NCBI GenBank assembly: GCA_903851035.1
Contig: CAINND010000056.1
Location: 1 to 34,165 of the forward strand
DNA length: 34,165 bases
Reading direction: 5' to 3'
Origin: an uncultured Acidobacteriota bacterium
GTDB taxonomy: Bacteria > Acidobacteriota > Terriglobia > Terriglobales > Acidobacteriaceae
Part shown: in pieces, positions 12,776 through 31,993 of the stretch
Position numbering within the stretch: the first letter of the stretch is position 1
Layout of the letters: every line of letters starts with the position of its first letter
The notes under the pieces: generated by a model
Seen by the model: the letters and a program-made list of their open reading frames with translations, nothing else
Database searches by the model: none
What the model was told of the DNA's origin: nothing
Made by a program: the position numbers and the translations under genes

Positions 12776-14131
12776 ATGTTCAAAAAGATTCTGATTGCCA
12801 ACCGCGGTGAGATTGCCCTGCGCATCATCTGCGCCTGCAAAGAGCTGGGCGTCAAGACCGTGGCCGTGTACAGCGAGCCCGACCGTAATTCTCTGCATGT
12901 GCGCTTTGCCGACGAAGCCATCTGCATTGGCCCGGCGCGCCCCGGTGAGAGCTACCTCAACATTCCGGCCGTCATGAGCGCCGCGGAGATTACCAACTCC
13001 GAGGCTATTCATCCCGGCTACGGCTTGCTCAGCGAGAACGCCAACTTCGCCCACGTCTGTGAGACGAGCGGCCTCAAATTCATCGGCCCGCCCTCGGAGG
13101 TCATCCGCATGATGGGCGAAAAGGAAAAGGCCCGCCAGGCGATGAAGCGCTGCGGCGTGCCCATCCTGCCCGGCTCCGATGGCATCATCGCCAATGAGGA
13201 AGAGGCGCTCAAGTGGGCGCAGCAGGTCGGCTTCCCGGTCATCGTCAAGGCCAGCGCCGGCGGCGGCGGACGCGGCATGAGGATCATCCGCTCGGCCGAG
13301 GAGCTGCCGCATATGTTCGCCAGCGCTCACGCCGAGGCCGCTGCGGCCTTCGGCAACGGCGACCTCTACATGGAGAAGTTCATCGAGCGTCCGCGCCACA
13401 TCGAGTTCCAGGTGCTGGCCGATGAGCACGGCAACGTCGTCAGCCTGGGTGAGCGCGATTGCAGCGTGCAGCGCCGCCACCAGAAGCTGATCGAGGAGTC
13501 GCCCTCGCCCGCCGTCTCTCCTGAAATACGCAAACGGATCAACGCCGTGCTGGAAAAGACGATGAAGGAGATCGGCTACCAGAACGCCGGCACCGTCGAG
13601 TTCCTGATGGATGAGGACGGCAGCCTGCACTTCATCGAAATGAACACGCGCATCCAGGTAGAGCATCCGGTCACGGAGTTCGTCACCGGCGTGGACCTGG
13701 TGAAGGCGCAGTTGCAGATCGCCAGTGGCGCCAAGCTGACGGACATCATCACCCTGCCCATCGTACCCAAGGGCCACTCCATCGAGTGCCGCATCAACGC
13801 CGAGCATCCGGAGAAGTTCACGCCCTCGGCGGGCAAGATTACGGTCTTCAACACGCCCGGCGGCAACGGTGTGCGCGTGGATACCGCTCAGTATCAGGAT
13901 GGCGTGGTGCCGCCGTATTACGATTCGCTCATCGCCAAGCTGATTGTGTATGGCCGCGACCGCCAGGAGGCGCTGGCCCGCATGAATCGCGCGTTGGACA
14001 TGTTCATCGTCGAAGGCATCCATACTTCGATTCCGCTGCACAAGCGCGTGCTGGCCGATCCTGATTTTGTGGCCGGAAAGTTCGACACAAAGTTCATGGA
14101 GCGCTTTATGCCGCAGAAGAAACATTCGTAG
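12776..14131 (+). CDS. accC: Biotin carboxylase subunit of acetyl-CoA carboxylase
   Basis: A 451-aa ATP-grasp enzyme that carboxylates biotin on AccB using ATP and bicarbonate. The N-terminal preATP domain starts [17 protein letters not shown]. The central ATP-grasp region has [14 protein letters not shown] (glycine-rich ATP loop) and the catalytic region [16 protein letters not shown], with the metal-binding Glu and the active-site Arg. The C-terminal domain has ECRINAEHP and [13 protein letters not shown]. Full length for AccC. GGGAG lies upstream of the ATG. It is separated from accB by a terminator-like hairpin, so part of its expression may come from readthrough. The carboxyltransferase subunits are not in the window. 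Confidence 0.97.
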
Positions 14132-14144
14132 GGTTTATCTAAAA

Positions 14145-14167
14145 GAGGGCGGCCCGGTGCCGCCCTC
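14145..14167 (+). terminator. Strong hairpin after accC without a U-tract
   Basis: GAGGGCGGC (14145-14153), loop CCGGT, GCCGCCCTC (14159-14167): a perfect 9-bp GC-rich stem 13 bases after the stop. The following bases GTGCATTG contain no T-run, so it may act with Rho or as a 3'-end stabiliser. Confidence 0.6.
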
Positions 14168-14180
14168 GTGCATTGATGAC

Positions 14181-14350
14181 GATGACAAAGTTGCATGAAA
14201 GGAAATGTCATTGCGACCGAAGCGCCGCAGGCGCGTAGTGGAGTGACCTTTTGTTTTGCTCTGCCAAGAAACAAAGGGTGGTTCGACTCCGCGCCCAAAA
14301 GCGGGCGCTGCGCTCACCATGACATTTCGTTAGTTTGAGATGTTCTCAGG
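14181..14350. repeat. Structured intergenic repeat, copy 1
   Basis: About 170 bp, ungapped at both ends with the copy at 31799-31970. The core is bounded by a perfect 10-bp inverted repeat, GAAATGTCAT (14202-14211) and ATGACATTTC (14319-14328). Inside are three hairpins: GCGCC/GGCGC (14222-14226 with 14230-14234); GGAGT plus ACCTTTTGTTT (14240-14244, 14246-14256) with AAACAAAGGGT and ACTCC (14269-14279, 14286-14290); and GCGCCC/GGGCGC (14291-14296 with 14303-14308). Together they draw a cloverleaf. No open reading frame or transposase is present. Confidence 0.9.
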
Positions 14351-14414
14351 TTTGTCGATTGCCTGAGGCCAGCACCAAACAGTTTTTTACGCTGTATGCC
14401 AAGTTCGATCCGCG

Positions 14415-15068
14415 ATGTTTATGCTTAAGCTGCCTGCGCTGTATCCCATCATCGACGCTGACACGCTGGCCGCCCGCGAGCCGCTGACCAGCGTCCGGGC
14501 AATGGTCTGCGGACAGGCGCGCGAACTCTACGACGCGGGCTGCACGGTGCTGCAATTGCGCACAAAGCAGCTCTCCGCGGAGGAGGCCCTGGAGTGCGCC
14601 CGCGCCCTGCGCCGCATGTTGCCCGAGGCCGTGCTCATCATGAATGACCGCGCCGATCTTTGCATGGCCGCCGGTTTTGATGGCGTGCACGTGGGCCAGC
14701 AGGATCTTTCCGCCAAGGGCGCGCGCATGGTGGTGGGCCCGGGGCGCATAGTCGGGCTGAGCACGCACACGGCCGAGCAGTTCGCCGTGGCGCTTACCGA
14801 GCCGGTGGACTACATCGCCATCGGGCCGGTCTTCGACACCACGAGCAAGCAGAATCCCGATCCTACGGTTGGGCTGGAGGGTGTAGCCGGGGCGCGGCAG
14901 GCGCTGATCGAGAGCGAGCGCGAGGTGGCACTGGTGGCCATCGGCGGCATACGTCATGAAACTGCCGCCTGGGTGCGCCGCGCCGGAGCCGATGCCGTGG
15001 CCGCGATTGGTGAATTAACGGATGCCCCGGGTGATTCGGCTAGGGAATTTTTCCGCCGGATGATGTAG
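14415..15068 (+). CDS. thiE: Thiamine phosphate synthase
   Basis: A 217-aa TIM-barrel enzyme that joins hydroxymethylpyrimidine pyrophosphate and thiazole phosphate to thiamine phosphate. Motifs in order: VLQLRTKQ (phosphate/substrate binding), IMNDRADLCMAAGFDGVHVGQQDL (the NDR...HxGQ.D pattern that binds HMP-PP and Mg), GLSTHTAEQ, YIAIGPVFDTTSK and ALVAIGGIRHETA. Full length. The start is either ATG 14415 or ATG 14421; neither has a good SD. No other thi gene is adjacent and no TPP riboswitch is recognisable upstream; the gap is taken up by the repeat element instead. Confidence 0.93.
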   Translation: MFMLKLPALYPIIDADTLAAREPLTSVRAMVCGQARELYDAGCTVLQLRTKQLSAEEALECARALRRMLPEAVLIMNDRADLCMAAGFDGVHVGQQDLSAKGARMVVGPGRIVGLSTHTAEQFAVALTEPVDYIAIGPVFDTTSKQNPDPTVGLEGVAGARQALIESEREVALVAIGGIRHETAAWVRRAGADAVAAIGELTDAPGDSAREFFRRMM

Positions 15069-22447: not shown

Positions 22448-22522
22448 TGGTAGCGCTACCGGGAATCGAACCCGGGTTTTAAGATTGAGAATCTCACGTC
22501 CTAACCCCTAGACGATAGCGCC
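22448..22522 (-). tRNA. tRNA-Glu (anticodon CTC)
   Basis: 75 bases including an encoded CCA. Acceptor GGCGCTA pairs with TAGCGCT (a G-U at the first pair). The D arm is GTC/GAC around TAGGGGTTAG. The anticodon stem TGAGA/TCTTA has loop TTCTCAA, giving CTC, which reads GAG. The T arm is CCGGG/CCCGG with loop TTCGATT. All cloverleaf elements are present. Confidence 0.96.
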
Positions 22523-24201: not shown

Positions 24202-24897
24202 TCAGGCTGAATGGGCATAGAGTGCGTGCATGTTCTGGCGCAGCATCTCCTCCACCAGCAGGCGTTCGGCCTCGCCAATGGACTTCCACTGCATGGTGCG
24301 CAGCAGGCTGGCGCGATTGGTGCGGGTAAACAGCACCATGGAAATCGTCGTCAGGAACTGCAGCTTTGTCTCCGGGGCATCCGCCGCGCGTCCGGTCAGC
24401 CGGCTTACGAACTCGGCGCCGATATCCAGGATGCTGGTAAAGTGGGCATGCAGAATGTCAAAGGCCTGGGTCGGCTGCGACTGCTCGCGCAGGATAAACT
24501 GTCCCCAGCAGTCGGGCGCGTCGGTGCCCAGCATCACGTGGGCAAAGTCCACCATGAACTCAACGAACAGCTCCAGCGTCTGATGACGGTTCAGTCCGGG
24601 CTTGGAGAGTCCCTGCCGGGCGCGATCGCACGCCGGCTGAAAGCGTCCCGTCACCTCCGCGCCAATATGCTCGGCGGCGGCGTGGTACAGGCCCTGCTTG
24701 CTGCCAAAGTAGTAGGGAATGGAGACCAGGTTGGCCTGGGCGCGCTCCACAATGGTGCGCGTGCTGGCCGCTTCATAGCCCAGGTCGCTAAAGACCTCTA
24801 CGGCCACCTCGATCAGGCGCTGGCGGGTGCGTTCGCTGCGGTCCTGGCAGGCCGAGCGTCCAAATGGCGACTTGCTGCGGGTTAGTAGTTTCGTCAT
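24202..24897 (-). CDS. TetR-family repressor, CecR-like
   Basis: 231 aa from ATG 24897 (an in-frame GTG at 24906 is possible). The N-terminal HTH domain spans about 20-70: RQRLIEVAVEVFSDLGYEAA, TRTIVERAQANLVSIPYYFG and SKQGLYHAAAEHI. The SIPYYFG recognition helix and the C-terminal domain (FMVDFAHVMLGTDAPDCWGQ) resemble CecR/YbiH regulators, which control efflux genes. It is divergent from the tolC-emrA-emrB-like operon with a 93-base shared region, the usual layout for a local repressor. It also precedes hpnH on the same strand, so it may be co-transcribed with the hopanoid gene. Confidence 0.9.
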   Translation of the reverse strand: MTKLLTRSKSPFGRSACQDRSERTRQRLIEVAVEVFSDLGYEAASTRTIVERAQANLVSIPYYFGSKQGLYHAAAEHIGAEVTGRFQPACDRARQGLSKPGLNRHQTLELFVEFMVDFAHVMLGTDAPDCWGQFILREQSQPTQAFDILHAHFTSILDIGAEFVSRLTGRAADAPETKLQFLTTISMVLFTRTNRASLLRTMQWKSIGEAERLLVEEMLRQNMHALYAHSA

Positions 24898-27762: not shown

Positions 27763-29339
27763 GTGAACCCGCCGTCGGGAAGGGACCCTGGCGACCGAGT
27801 CATAATCCGTGGGCCGTCGCCATGACGGTGACCATGGCAACGTTCATGGAGGTGCTGGACACCTCCATCGCCAACGTCGCGCTGCCGCACATTGCCGGTT
27901 CGCTCTCCGCCGGGCAGGATGAGTCCACCTGGGTGTTGACCAGCTATCTGGTCAGCAACGCCATCGTGCTGCCCATCTCTGCCTGGATGAGCGACCGCTT
28001 TGGCCGCAAGCGCTTCTACATGACCTGCGTCCTGCTCTTTACGCTCAGCTCGCTGCTCTGCGGGTTGAGCACTTCGCTTGGCATGCTGATCTTCTTCCGC
28101 ATCCTGCAAGGCGCGGGCGGCGGAGGCCTCGGCCCCAGCGAGCAGGCCATTCTGGCCGACACCTTCCTGCCGCATCAACGCGGCATGGGCTTTGCCATGT
28201 ATGGCATGGCCGTGGTGCTGGCTCCGGCCATTGGCCCCACCCTCGGCGGCTGGATTACCGATAACTACAACTGGCACTGGATATTCTTCATCAACGTGCC
28301 GGTGGGCATATTGTCCCTGTATCTCACCGAGCGGCTGGTGGAGGATCCACCCTGGATTGGCGATGCCCAGGAGCGCGCCAAGCACGAGCCCGTCGATTAC
28401 ACCGGCCTGGCGCTGATTGCCGTCGGCCTGGGTACGCTTCAGGTCATTCTCGACAAGGGCGAGCGCGAGGACTGGTTCAGCTCGCACTTCATCCAGATAT
28501 TCACCGTCATCTGCGTGGTTGCACTGGTGTCGTTCATCCTGTGGGAGTGGCACGAGAAGCATCCCATTCTCGATCTGCGCATGTTGCGACATCGAAATCT
28601 ATCGGTCAGCAACATCCTGATGTTCGTGCTCGGCTTCGTGCTCTACGGCTCCACGGTCATGATTCCGCAGTTCCTGCAGACCGTGATGGGGTATACGGCA
28701 AAGCTGGCGGGCATGGCGCTCTCTCCGGGCGGGCTGGTGGTCATGGCCCTGATGCCGCTGGTGGGCACTCTTGTGGGCAAGGTGGATGCGCGCAAGATGA
28801 TCGCCTTTGGCTTCATCACGCTCGGACTCAGCATGTTCCACATGATGGGCATGTATCCCGGCATCGACTTCCACACCGCCATGATGTATCGCATCTACCA
28901 GTCCATCGGCATGGCCTTCCTCTTCGTGCCCATCAACACCATCTGTTACTCCGGTGTGCCGCAGGAGGACAACAACCAGGTCAGCTCCATGATTAACCTG
29001 ATGCGCAATCTTGGTGGCAGCTTCGGCATCTCGTTTGTGACGACGATTCTTTCGCGCCGCATGCAGACGCACAGCTCGTACCTCATCGCGCACACCTCCG
29101 CCGCCAATGTTCCCATGCAGAAGATGCTGCACGGCATGACCGGATACTTCACCATTCACGGCGGCGGCACGGCCGGGCTCATGCAGGCCTATGGCAGCAT
29201 CTACGCCACCGTGATGCGTGAGGCGGCGGTGCTGGCGTATCGCGACACCAACTTCATCATGGGTGTTGTCACGCTCTCGGCTTTGCCTCTGCTGCTGCTC
29301 ACGCGCAAGCCCAAGCCGGGCATCCACATGGGGCACTAA
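27759..29339 (+). CDS. EmrB/QacA-type MFS drug exporter (DHA2, 14 TM)
   Basis: A 526-aa proton-driven exporter. Helix 1 has TMATFMEVLDTSIANVALPH with the DHA2 motif D1 (LDxTIVNVALP-like). Motif A is SDRFGRKRFYM in loop 2-3, and motif C is APAIGPTLGGWI in helix 5, typical of antiporter exporters. Hydrophobicity suggests 14 helices. It starts four bases inside the emrA-like gene and is the last gene of the operon. Together the three genes span both membranes; the substrate is unknown, but EmrAB-TolC systems export hydrophobic toxic compounds. Confidence 0.94.
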   Translation: MSEPAVGKGPWRPSHNPWAVAMTVTMATFMEVLDTSIANVALPHIAGSLSAGQDESTWVLTSYLVSNAIVLPISAWMSDRFGRKRFYMTCVLLFTLSSLLCGLSTSLGMLIFFRILQGAGGGGLGPSEQAILADTFLPHQRGMGFAMYGMAVVLAPAIGPTLGGWITDNYNWHWIFFINVPVGILSLYLTERLVEDPPWIGDAQERAKHEPVDYTGLALIAVGLGTLQVILDKGEREDWFSSHFIQIFTVICVVALVSFILWEWHEKHPILDLRMLRHRNLSVSNILMFVLGFVLYGSTVMIPQFLQTVMGYTAKLAGMALSPGGLVVMALMPLVGTLVGKVDARKMIAFGFITLGLSMFHMMGMYPGIDFHTAMMYRIYQSIGMAFLFVPINTICYSGVPQEDNNQVSSMINLMRNLGGSFGISFVTTILSRRMQTHSSYLIAHTSAANVPMQKMLHGMTGYFTIHGGGTAGLMQAYGSIYATVMREAAVLAYRDTNFIMGVVTLSALPLLLLTRKPKPGIHMGH

Positions 29340-31271: not shown

Positions 31272-31694
31272 ATGAATCAGATGCAGCCCAAACCGGAGAC
31301 CCTTTGCCAGGGCAGCGATGCGCTGGAGAACATCACCCTTGATGGCGGCCATGTGCTCACCTACGCCGGCGGTGACGCCGCGCAGCTCGTCCTGCTATGC
31401 GCCAACTTTTTATCGGAGCTTCCCATCCACATGGAGCGGCTTACCGACTCCATTCGTCAGCGCGAGCACATCAGTGCCGCCGGCAACGCGCAGCGTCTCG
31501 GCAGCAGTCTGCTCGTCTTTGGCAGTGAGGTCATCACCTGCACCCTGGCCGCCCTGGAGACCAGTCTGCGCTGTGGCCGCCGGCGACAGGCCATGATCGA
31601 GTGGCGGCGTTTGCAGCGCCAGCTCGATTGCCTTGTGCCCCAGGTGCAGCGCCTCATGCTGGAGGTAGCCACGCCGCGCTGCCGCATTCAGTAG
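31272..31694 (+). CDS. Hpt-domain-like protein with the phospho-histidine replaced by Gln
   Basis: 140 aa. The layout follows histidine phosphotransfer (Hpt) domains. Gly-Gly-Asp then FLSELPIHMERLTDSI (residues 46-61) matches the first helices. NAQRLGSSLLVFGSEV (72-87) aligns with the AHxLKGSAxxxGA helix, followed by LAALETSL (92-99) and a last helix. In that alignment the phospho-His is Gln74 and the following Lys is Gly77, so phosphotransfer should be impossible. No kinase or receiver gene is adjacent. The start ATG 31272 has a weak SD; ATG 31281 is possible. Fold assignment is by pattern only. Confidence 0.6.
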   Translation: MNQMQPKPETLCQGSDALENITLDGGHVLTYAGGDAAQLVLLCANFLSELPIHMERLTDSIRQREHISAAGNAQRLGSSLLVFGSEVITCTLAALETSLRCGRRRQAMIEWRRLQRQLDCLVPQVQRLMLEVATPRCRIQ

Positions 31695-31727: not shown

Positions 31728-31768
31728 AAACCGCGTTCCGGGTCAACCAGCCCGGGCGCGGTTTTCTC
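31728..31768 (+). terminator. Terminator of the Hpt-like gene
   Basis: AAACCGCG (31728-31735) pairs with CGCGGTTT (31757-31764); an inner CCGGG/CCCGG stem can also form. It ends in TTTTCTC. Confidence 0.85.
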
Positions 31769-31798
31769 ATGATTGTTGAATTTTTCTTGTTTCAGCTT

Positions 31799-31970
31799 GA
31801 TGGCAAAGTTGAATAAATTGAAATGTCATTGCGACCGAAGCGCCGTAGGCGCGTAGTGGAGTGACCTTTTGTTTTGCTTTCCCCCGGAAACAAAAGGTGG
31901 TTCGACTCCGCGCCCAAACAGCGGGCGCTGCGCTCACCATGACATTTCGTAAGTTTCAAATGCCTCAAGG
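31799..31970. repeat. Structured intergenic repeat, copy 2
   Basis: Second copy of the 14181-14350 element in the same orientation. The inverted-repeat ends are GAAATGTCAT (31820-31829) and ATGACATTTC (31939-31948). The central stem ACCTTTTGTTT (31864-31874) pairs perfectly with AAACAAAAGGT (31888-31898), enclosed by GGAGT/ACTCC (31858-31862 with 31905-31909). The third hairpin is GCGCCC/GGGCGC (31910-31915 with 31923-31928). Differences from copy 1 fall in the three loops, apart from one G-U to A-U change in the central stem. No gene lies in 31695-31993. Confidence 0.9.
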
Positions 31971-31993
31971 TCGGTCAGCAGTCTGTTATTTCC

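Follow-up and report, generated by a model that had tools for sequence, protein, structure and literature searches.

We identify the folded intergenic repeat of this window, the whole 34,165-nucleotide stretch of DNA analysed here, as very probably a non-autonomous IS1182-family MITE with a REPIN-like cargo, inserted at hairpin terminators with duplication of the hairpin. The initial annotation had suggested a MITE- or REP-like element mobilised in trans. That suggestion is supported and can be refined to IS1182-type ends that enclose a pair of inverted REP-like arms.

Two intergenic copies had been described, at 14181-14350 and 31799-31970, and both are present. In a DNA search of the own genome, they are 90% identical across 162 bp (E=2.6e-57), so their similarity is not due to chance. 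Copy 1 occupies the accC-thiE gap, between the end of a biotin carboxylase ORF at 14131 and the start of a thiamine monophosphate synthase ORF at 14415. Copy 2 lies between ORFs ending at 31694 (+ strand) and 31994 (- strand). The extent first given for them was too short: since terminal repeats fall outside it, the shared unit is longer, running from 14170 to 14365 and from 31793 to 31985. The earlier description also holds for the 10-bp repeat that closes the core (GAAATGTCAT/ATGACATTTC), for the three small hairpins and their differing loops, and for the one position where a G-U pair becomes A-U between the copies. The parts of the two copies and the hairpins beside them are as follows.

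14170..14365, + strand: mini-element copy 1, whole, 196 bp (from the 12 own-genome copies aligned with their flanks; ends placed by hand)
14170..14189, + strand: left end of copy 1, TIR-like, degenerate (..TTGATGACGATGACAAA; compare CAGCTTGATGACAAA in another copy)
14202..14328, + strand: folded core of copy 1, with two REP-like arms in inverted order, the 10-bp closing stem and three small hairpins
14351..14365, + strand: right end of copy 1, TIR-like, degenerate (TTTGTCGATTGCCTG)
14145..14167, + strand: terminator-like hairpin 2 bp left of copy 1, 3' of the biotin carboxylase gene
31793..31985, + strand: mini-element copy 2, whole, 193 bp (flank alignment; ends placed by hand)
31793..31807, + strand: left TIR of copy 2 (CAGCTTGATGGCAAA; pattern search, 1 mismatch)
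31820..31948, + strand: folded core of copy 2 (DNA fold)
31970..31985, + strand: right TIR of copy 2 (GTCGGTCAGCAGTCTG; from the sequence, placed by hand)
31728..31765, + strand: terminator-like hairpin upstream of copy 2, 27 bp off its left end and not duplicated (from the sequence)

The element is not confined to two places, as had first appeared. Using the DNA of 14181-14350 as query against the own genome (G000, 3.26 Mb, a draft in 121 contigs), with all 31 candidates scored, we found 12 copies; identity to copy 1 among the remaining eleven is 83-94%. This fits the recent spread of a folded element that the initial annotation had considered. With hand-placed ends, the 12 copies are 188-230 bp long, typically about 190 bp; they are thus short, multi-copy and too small to hold a transposase gene. 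The element also matches its own reverse complement, with a 69% self-match on the opposite strand. A larger ordinary duplication had been named as a possible source of the similarity, and we find instead that the similarity stops at the element ends and the repeated hairpin. Among 60 further relatives, G033, which belongs to another genus of the family, has at least ten matches of 74-84% identity, and partial matches occur in G035 (at least two) and G010 (at least one). In total, 57 of 61 genomes had no match, including the three other genomes of the genus, where the scoring covered up to 13 candidates in each relative. Copy counts outside the own genome are therefore lower bounds, resting on up to 13 candidates per genome among the relatives and up to two in the family search described below.

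The copies share their ends. Similarity among the 12 own copies runs from about CAGCTTGATGACAAAG on the left to TTTGTCAGCAGTCTG on the right, past the span first reported, and the ends are imperfect terminal inverted repeats of the form CAG..TG.TGACAAA. One own copy and one from G033 have exactly CAGACTGCTGACAAA as their right end (15/15), and by inspection the left-end consensus matches the IS end at 12/15 bases. Among the G033 matches, an end with at most three substitutions to the 13 bases of GACTGCTGACAAA is recognisable on one side in 6/10, on neither side in 4/10 and on both sides in 0/10; 16/2000 random 120-bp stretches of the window contain such an end. Exact CAGACTGCTGACAAA occurs 23 times, in 16/398 genomes of the family, where its reversed control pattern has no occurrence. 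By base count about three occurrences are expected by chance, and two of the loci (L182, L184) resemble chance sites. Allowing one mismatch gave 32 sites in the own genome and 45 in seven genomes. Eight such loci outside the known copies were read; one (L089) is a further G033 copy, and no transposon was seen in the eight beyond this and a short candidate, also in G033. The candidate (L097, G033:C8:474713) is a stretch of some 120 bp bounded by TGCTGACAAA in inverted orientation; its interior is a different one, and it is possibly one more mini-element type. One own copy (L016, G000:C116, near 28582-28783) has partial tandem duplications at both ends: the left end stands twice, and TAAGTTTGAGATGT stands twice on the right.

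The same end bounds full-length transposons. Nine of the 23 CAGACTGCTGACAAA ends lead into the beginning of a transposase gene, in G129, G331, G336, G409 and G277; four of these nine are cut by a contig end, and two begin contigs with a collapsed IS. The G336 IS measures 1573 bp; its two ends read CAGACTGCTGACAAA and TTCGTCAGCAGTCTG. Its 481-residue protein is an IS1182 family transposase by NF033551 (476.9 bits against an NCBIfam cut-off of 270) and also matches PF05598 and PF13751. Scoring up to three candidates per genome across the 398 genomes, we found NF033551-type matches in at least 260, of which 72 exceed the cut-off. The four best scores, 472-488 bits with the next at 383, belong to G129, G331, G336 and G409, and all four of these genomes carry the CAGACTGCTGACAAA end. 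In the own genome, NF033551 matched none of the three candidates scored out of four, where a draft in 121 contigs can miss such a gene, and PF13751 matched none of four. Because no IS1182 transposase was found there, the own-genome copies look orphaned. Neither G001 nor G002 has an NF033551 match among up to three candidates scored per genome. Another species of the genus, G003, has at least four IS1182-type matches (best E 1.1e-34), and G033 has at least one weak match (E=1.1e-7). PF13751, searched in four genomes, gave one weak match, in G010; PF01609, searched in two, gave one weak match, in the own genome.

Most of the 12 own copies have a terminator-like hairpin directly outside the element. 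With the ends of all copies placed by hand, and measured against 45-mers of the window as background rather than against other gene ends, where terminators are common, hairpins at or above the 99th percentile stand left of seven copies and right of six, on at least one side of nine and on both sides of four. Twelve of these 13 hairpins lie 0-5 bp from the element end and one lies 11 bp away. The hairpin beside copy 1 (14145..14167) scores at the 99.3rd percentile of 4000 random 45-mers from the window and has no second occurrence on the right side of the copy. By hairpin scoring, copy 2 has no strong hairpin within 45 bp of either end.

At half of the own copies (6/12), the flanks form a direct repeat that holds a hairpin, which is strong on both sides in four of the six. 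The clearest cases are L014, where a 38/38 bp repeat carries the complete hairpin and its T run on both sides, and L020, where the repeat is exact over 35/35 bp. At L015, L016, L019 and L021, the repeat spans 23-47 aligned bp with differences. One of the two hairpin copies has decayed at L016 and L019, and at L016 the repeat begins about 11-14 bp outside the hairpin and so does not coincide exactly with it. When every left flank was scored against every right flank, six of the 12 true pairs scored above all 132 mismatched pairs (maximum 29), and the summed score of 384 was reached in 0/20,000 permutations (mean 176, sd 26, maximum 325). Two further copies, L022 and L023, score 24 and 22, below the highest mismatched pairing. 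Scores are at background for copy 1 (14), copy 2 (12), L017 (14) and L018 (10). Target-site duplications, which the initial annotation had proposed looking for, are hence found at six of the 12 copies; neither window copy preserves one, since their scores are indistinguishable from background. The terminators that flank L021 (G000:C24, near 24592-24754) have identical stems and mutually inverted loops, GAAA and TTTC, as if one hairpin had flipped.

The full-length transposons show a similar arrangement. Identical hairpins stand on either side of the IS in G129 (28 bp, AAGCGCGGAGACTGAAGTCTCCGCGCTT) and G331 (20 bp), and in G336 a hairpin of about 20 bp stands on both sides with one difference. 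In all, three of the five IS-bearing genomes have equal hairpins on both sides of the IS, where the pairing of flanks in G129 and G331 rests on their identity because the two flanks lie on different contigs. In G409 and G277, hairpins are present on both sides but are unlike each other, and the transposase gene of G277 is interrupted. Over 21 ends with enough flank, those of the own genome and G033 included, the highest-scoring hairpin, whatever its strength, reaches to 0-1 bp of the end at 15/21; the same holds for 360/4200 random stretches drawn from these loci. Within 3 bp, 11/21 ends have a hairpin that reaches at least the 95th percentile, and 44/4200 of the random stretches have one scoring at least 20. 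An IS1182 with other ends (CCCCAGGCTCGCCAG), at L218 (G415:C136), has similar hairpins 23 bp outside one end and 5 bp outside the other (ATCT..CGCCCGCT..CGGGCT). Duplication of hairpins may therefore extend more widely through the IS1182 family, in whose other branches, such as that of L218, automatic finding of ends and repeats is noisy.

Corresponding sites in sister species are free of the element. We searched the rest of the genus, the genomes G001-G003, with six 280-bp flank pieces and obtained 15 matches, of which 14 rows were read by eye and one partial match (L174) was left out; the element is absent from all 14, across six sites and three species. By eye, a single hairpin lies 3' of mtnA, the L014 site, in all three species, and at secA, the L016 site, in G001 and G003, with none visible in G002. 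At the accC-thiE gap, the site of copy 1, there is one hairpin in G001 and none obvious in G002 or G003. The L015 site has one hairpin in G001 and G002, beside a different upstream gene, and none obvious in G003; the L017 site has one in G002 by eye. The L021 site in G002 has two unlike hairpins, again by eye, without the element. Since hairpin sequences are not conserved between the sister species, and some neighbouring genes differ, we read these as element-free sites, several with a single hairpin, and not as the ancestral sequence.

We then consider what lies between the ends. The two halves of the core resemble an intergenic repeat of the family, TGTCAT..GACCG(A)AGCG..CGTAGTGGAG.GACC and TGTCAT..GAGCG..GCGGAGTCGAA..ACC. 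With copy 2 as query and up to two candidates scored per genome, matches occur in 37/398 genomes, own and G033 included, and mostly comprise one arm. At the loci read in other genomes of the family, arms are single or in inverted pairs (as in L102, L105, L107 and L110). As arms occur alone or in inverted pairs, and the core of the element is itself such an inverted pair, we call the core REPIN-like. In the own genome there are no lone arms at E<=0.001, where a decayed arm could be missed; each of the 12 places holds a whole element. Two RAYT genes are present in the own genome, at L145 (G000:C37:72300-72602) and L150 (G000:C92:48141-48452). Each has a GGGTGCCC..GGGGTAGTT repeat in inverted copies on its flanks, and the two look like ordinary RAYT-REP pairs unrelated to the mini-element. 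When the element and its arms were aligned locally to the two RAYT loci, the best scores were 16-27, a range with no formal control, and by eye and local alignment no RAYT gene of the own genome is flanked by the element's own repeat.

The cargo varies among CAGACTGCTGACAAA ends. Five of the 23 (L176, L177, L178, L181 and L193) have a CTCAGCGGCTAAAGCC-like repeat 20-141 bp inside the end instead, so that the same ends appear with different cargo; these five are probably other mini-element types. A search of genome contigs with the core pattern returned 16 loci, 13 of them titled Eremiobacterota. Loci L128-L143 carry arm-like GGTGGTTCGACTNCGC..GCTCACCATGAC in contigs of Eremiobacterota, Spartobacteria, Acidobacteriales and one plain 'bacterium'. 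In the stretches read, this is a more widespread, cross-phylum repeat that shares arm sequence, and the mini-element ends were not seen there.

The core had been described as a cloverleaf, perhaps under selection on structure. Its hairpins and closing stem are present, but the lowest-energy RNA fold of the copy 1 core is a long imperfect rod (-59.7 kcal/mol), with the cloverleaf as an alternative (-52.7 kcal/mol). With the two structures imposed in turn, the rod is the more stable one in 18/19 aligned sequences. Copy 1 as RNA (-62.6 kcal/mol, z -6.2, 0/200 shuffles as low) and copy 2 as DNA (-31.6 kcal/mol, z -4.3) both form essentially one long rod. For covariation we aligned 19 sequences, the 12 own copies and seven diverged G033 copies. 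For the cloverleaf, 91.8% of cells are paired, six pairs are changed on both sides (reached by 9/500 shuffles) and the covariation score is 0.102 (0/500); the number of its pair types is not above shuffles (456/500 reach it). The rod is nearly equal, with 91.1% of cells paired, four both-side pairs (237/500) and a score of 0.090 (1/500). Slid versions of the structures pair 34-52%, a comparison that favours the structures proper because they were derived from one of the aligned sequences. A both-sided G-C to A-U change in three own copies fits hairpin 3 of the cloverleaf but does not fit the rod. Selection on the cloverleaf thus finds weak support, and there is moderate evidence either that the small core hairpins are of importance or that they undergo correction as DNA palindromes. 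Strand switching is another source of compensatory changes in such palindromes, and we do not take the covariation as evidence for an RNA function of the element. At gathering threshold, Rfam 15 has no match in the window except one tRNA gene, at 22451-22522 on the - strand.

Several other explanations deserve weighing. Our first guess was a REPIN moved by RAYT, with the inverted REP-like pair as the mobile unit and the outer ends incidental. The paired arms of the core, with their 69% self-match, would suit it, as would the occurrence of similar arms elsewhere in the family and of two RAYT genes in the own genome. Yet that guess is unsupported in the own genome because, by eye, both of its RAYTs carry another repeat, and lone arms are lacking there at the threshold given above. 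RAYT transposition is not known to give shared outer ends or a duplicated target, and we judge this origin to be very unlikely. Another candidate for the element was a structured non-coding RNA, or an attenuator, in which the RNA fold is what is conserved. It could draw on the stable fold, the high pairing and both-sided changes over the 19 sequences, and the G-C to A-U change that prefers the cloverleaf. Against this, the copies sit at scattered sites beside different genes, have transposon ends and are absent from the three other genomes of the genus; the pair-type count does not exceed shuffles, 7/19 rows are diverged G033 copies, and strand switching can yield the same changes, one copy (L021) showing an inverted terminator loop. 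We find no positive support for an RNA and have set it aside on the absent Rfam match and the transposon ends, leaving it a very small probability.

The third alternative grants the insertion but not the duplication: the flanking hairpins would be two similar terminators that were already there. Terminators are common at gene ends, and G002 does have two hairpins without the element at the L021 site, though unlike ones. This account sits poorly with flanks identical over 38/38 and 35/35 bp, with the single hairpin after mtnA in all three sister species and with equal hairpins on both sides of the IS in three genomes, and we think it highly improbable.

The mini-element reading can be put as a sequence of events. 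A related full-length IS1182, which was not found in the own genome as it now stands, would have supplied the transposase in trans, and an IS1182 transposase of this type would have moved the own-genome copies. It would have recognised the terminal inverted repeats, CAGACTGCTGACAAA and the imperfect left version, and the element would have inserted at hairpin-forming intrinsic terminators 3' of genes. We infer a staggered cut at the hairpin base, with the two strands joined on opposite sides of the hairpin; because of this joining, gap repair would duplicate the whole hairpin and leave a terminator on each side. If the flanking hairpins act as terminators, the kept termination would make the insertion nearly harmless. 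Going further, we suggest tentatively, as a possibility somewhat short of probable, that this IS1182 branch measures its target by structure. The transposase would recognise an extruded hairpin (cruciform) and join the ends across the hairpin base, so that the duplicated length follows the terminator (~20-38 bp) and not a fixed spacing. The element would thereby clone the host's terminator and lie insulated between two stop signals, and gene-less derivatives would have gained unrelated REP-type cargo more than once.

For part of the family's folded intergenic repeats, these elements provide a mechanism: transposon ends with REP-like cargo parked at terminators. They also offer cases from nature in which a DDE transposase seems to duplicate its target according to secondary structure, and terminator duplication would explain why such insertions are harmless. 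Variable, palindrome-linked duplications are listed for the IS1182 family. Leaving aside ISfinder and the main IS reviews (Siguier and co-workers), we found in the literature searched neither whole-terminator duplication by IS1182 nor REPIN-like cargo between IS1182 ends. IS1182 MITEs and hairpin targeting are already in print; what is new here is the whole-terminator duplication together with the REPIN-like cargo, of which the duplication may stand in ISfinder or the reviews.

Among known systems, the IS1182-family IS identified by NF033551, such as the 1573-bp IS of G336, shares with the window element the CAGACTGCTGACAAA end and insertion abutting hairpins; the window element differs in having no transposase, a length of about 190 bp and REP-like arms inside. 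IS1272 and TnSha1, IS1182-family elements of staphylococci, are reported to insert into hairpins, several of them confirmed terminators, with no primary sequence consensus (PMC4923244), and the same paper relays that some IS1182 members target palindromes (PMC4923244). For IS1272, it reports a blunt cut within the stem, partial deletion of the hairpin and no target duplication (PMC4923244). Hairpin targeting is alike, whereas here the complete hairpin is repeated. The outcome is thus opposite to the IS1272 hairpin deletions and provides a testable contrast within one family. MITEPye1 of Paracoccus yeei is reported as a gene-less element with IS1182-like TIRs and predicted long stem-loops, preferentially intergenic, with 4-bp direct repeats and 1-3 copies per chromosome (PMC11578231); the word terminator is absent from the main text of that paper. 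MITEPye1 is alike in being short, gene-less and intergenic with IS1182-like TIRs, and differs in its 4-bp repeats and its 1-3 copies per chromosome. In the main text of a review of prokaryotic MITEs, the word IS1182 is absent (PMC10969869). REPINs are inverted pairs of REP arms that form a hairpin (PMC3116915). The core of the window element resembles them in its inverted pair of REP-like arms forming a hairpin; unlike them, the element is bounded by transposon ends, is often flanked by a repeated hairpin and has no RAYT seen with the same repeat in the own genome.
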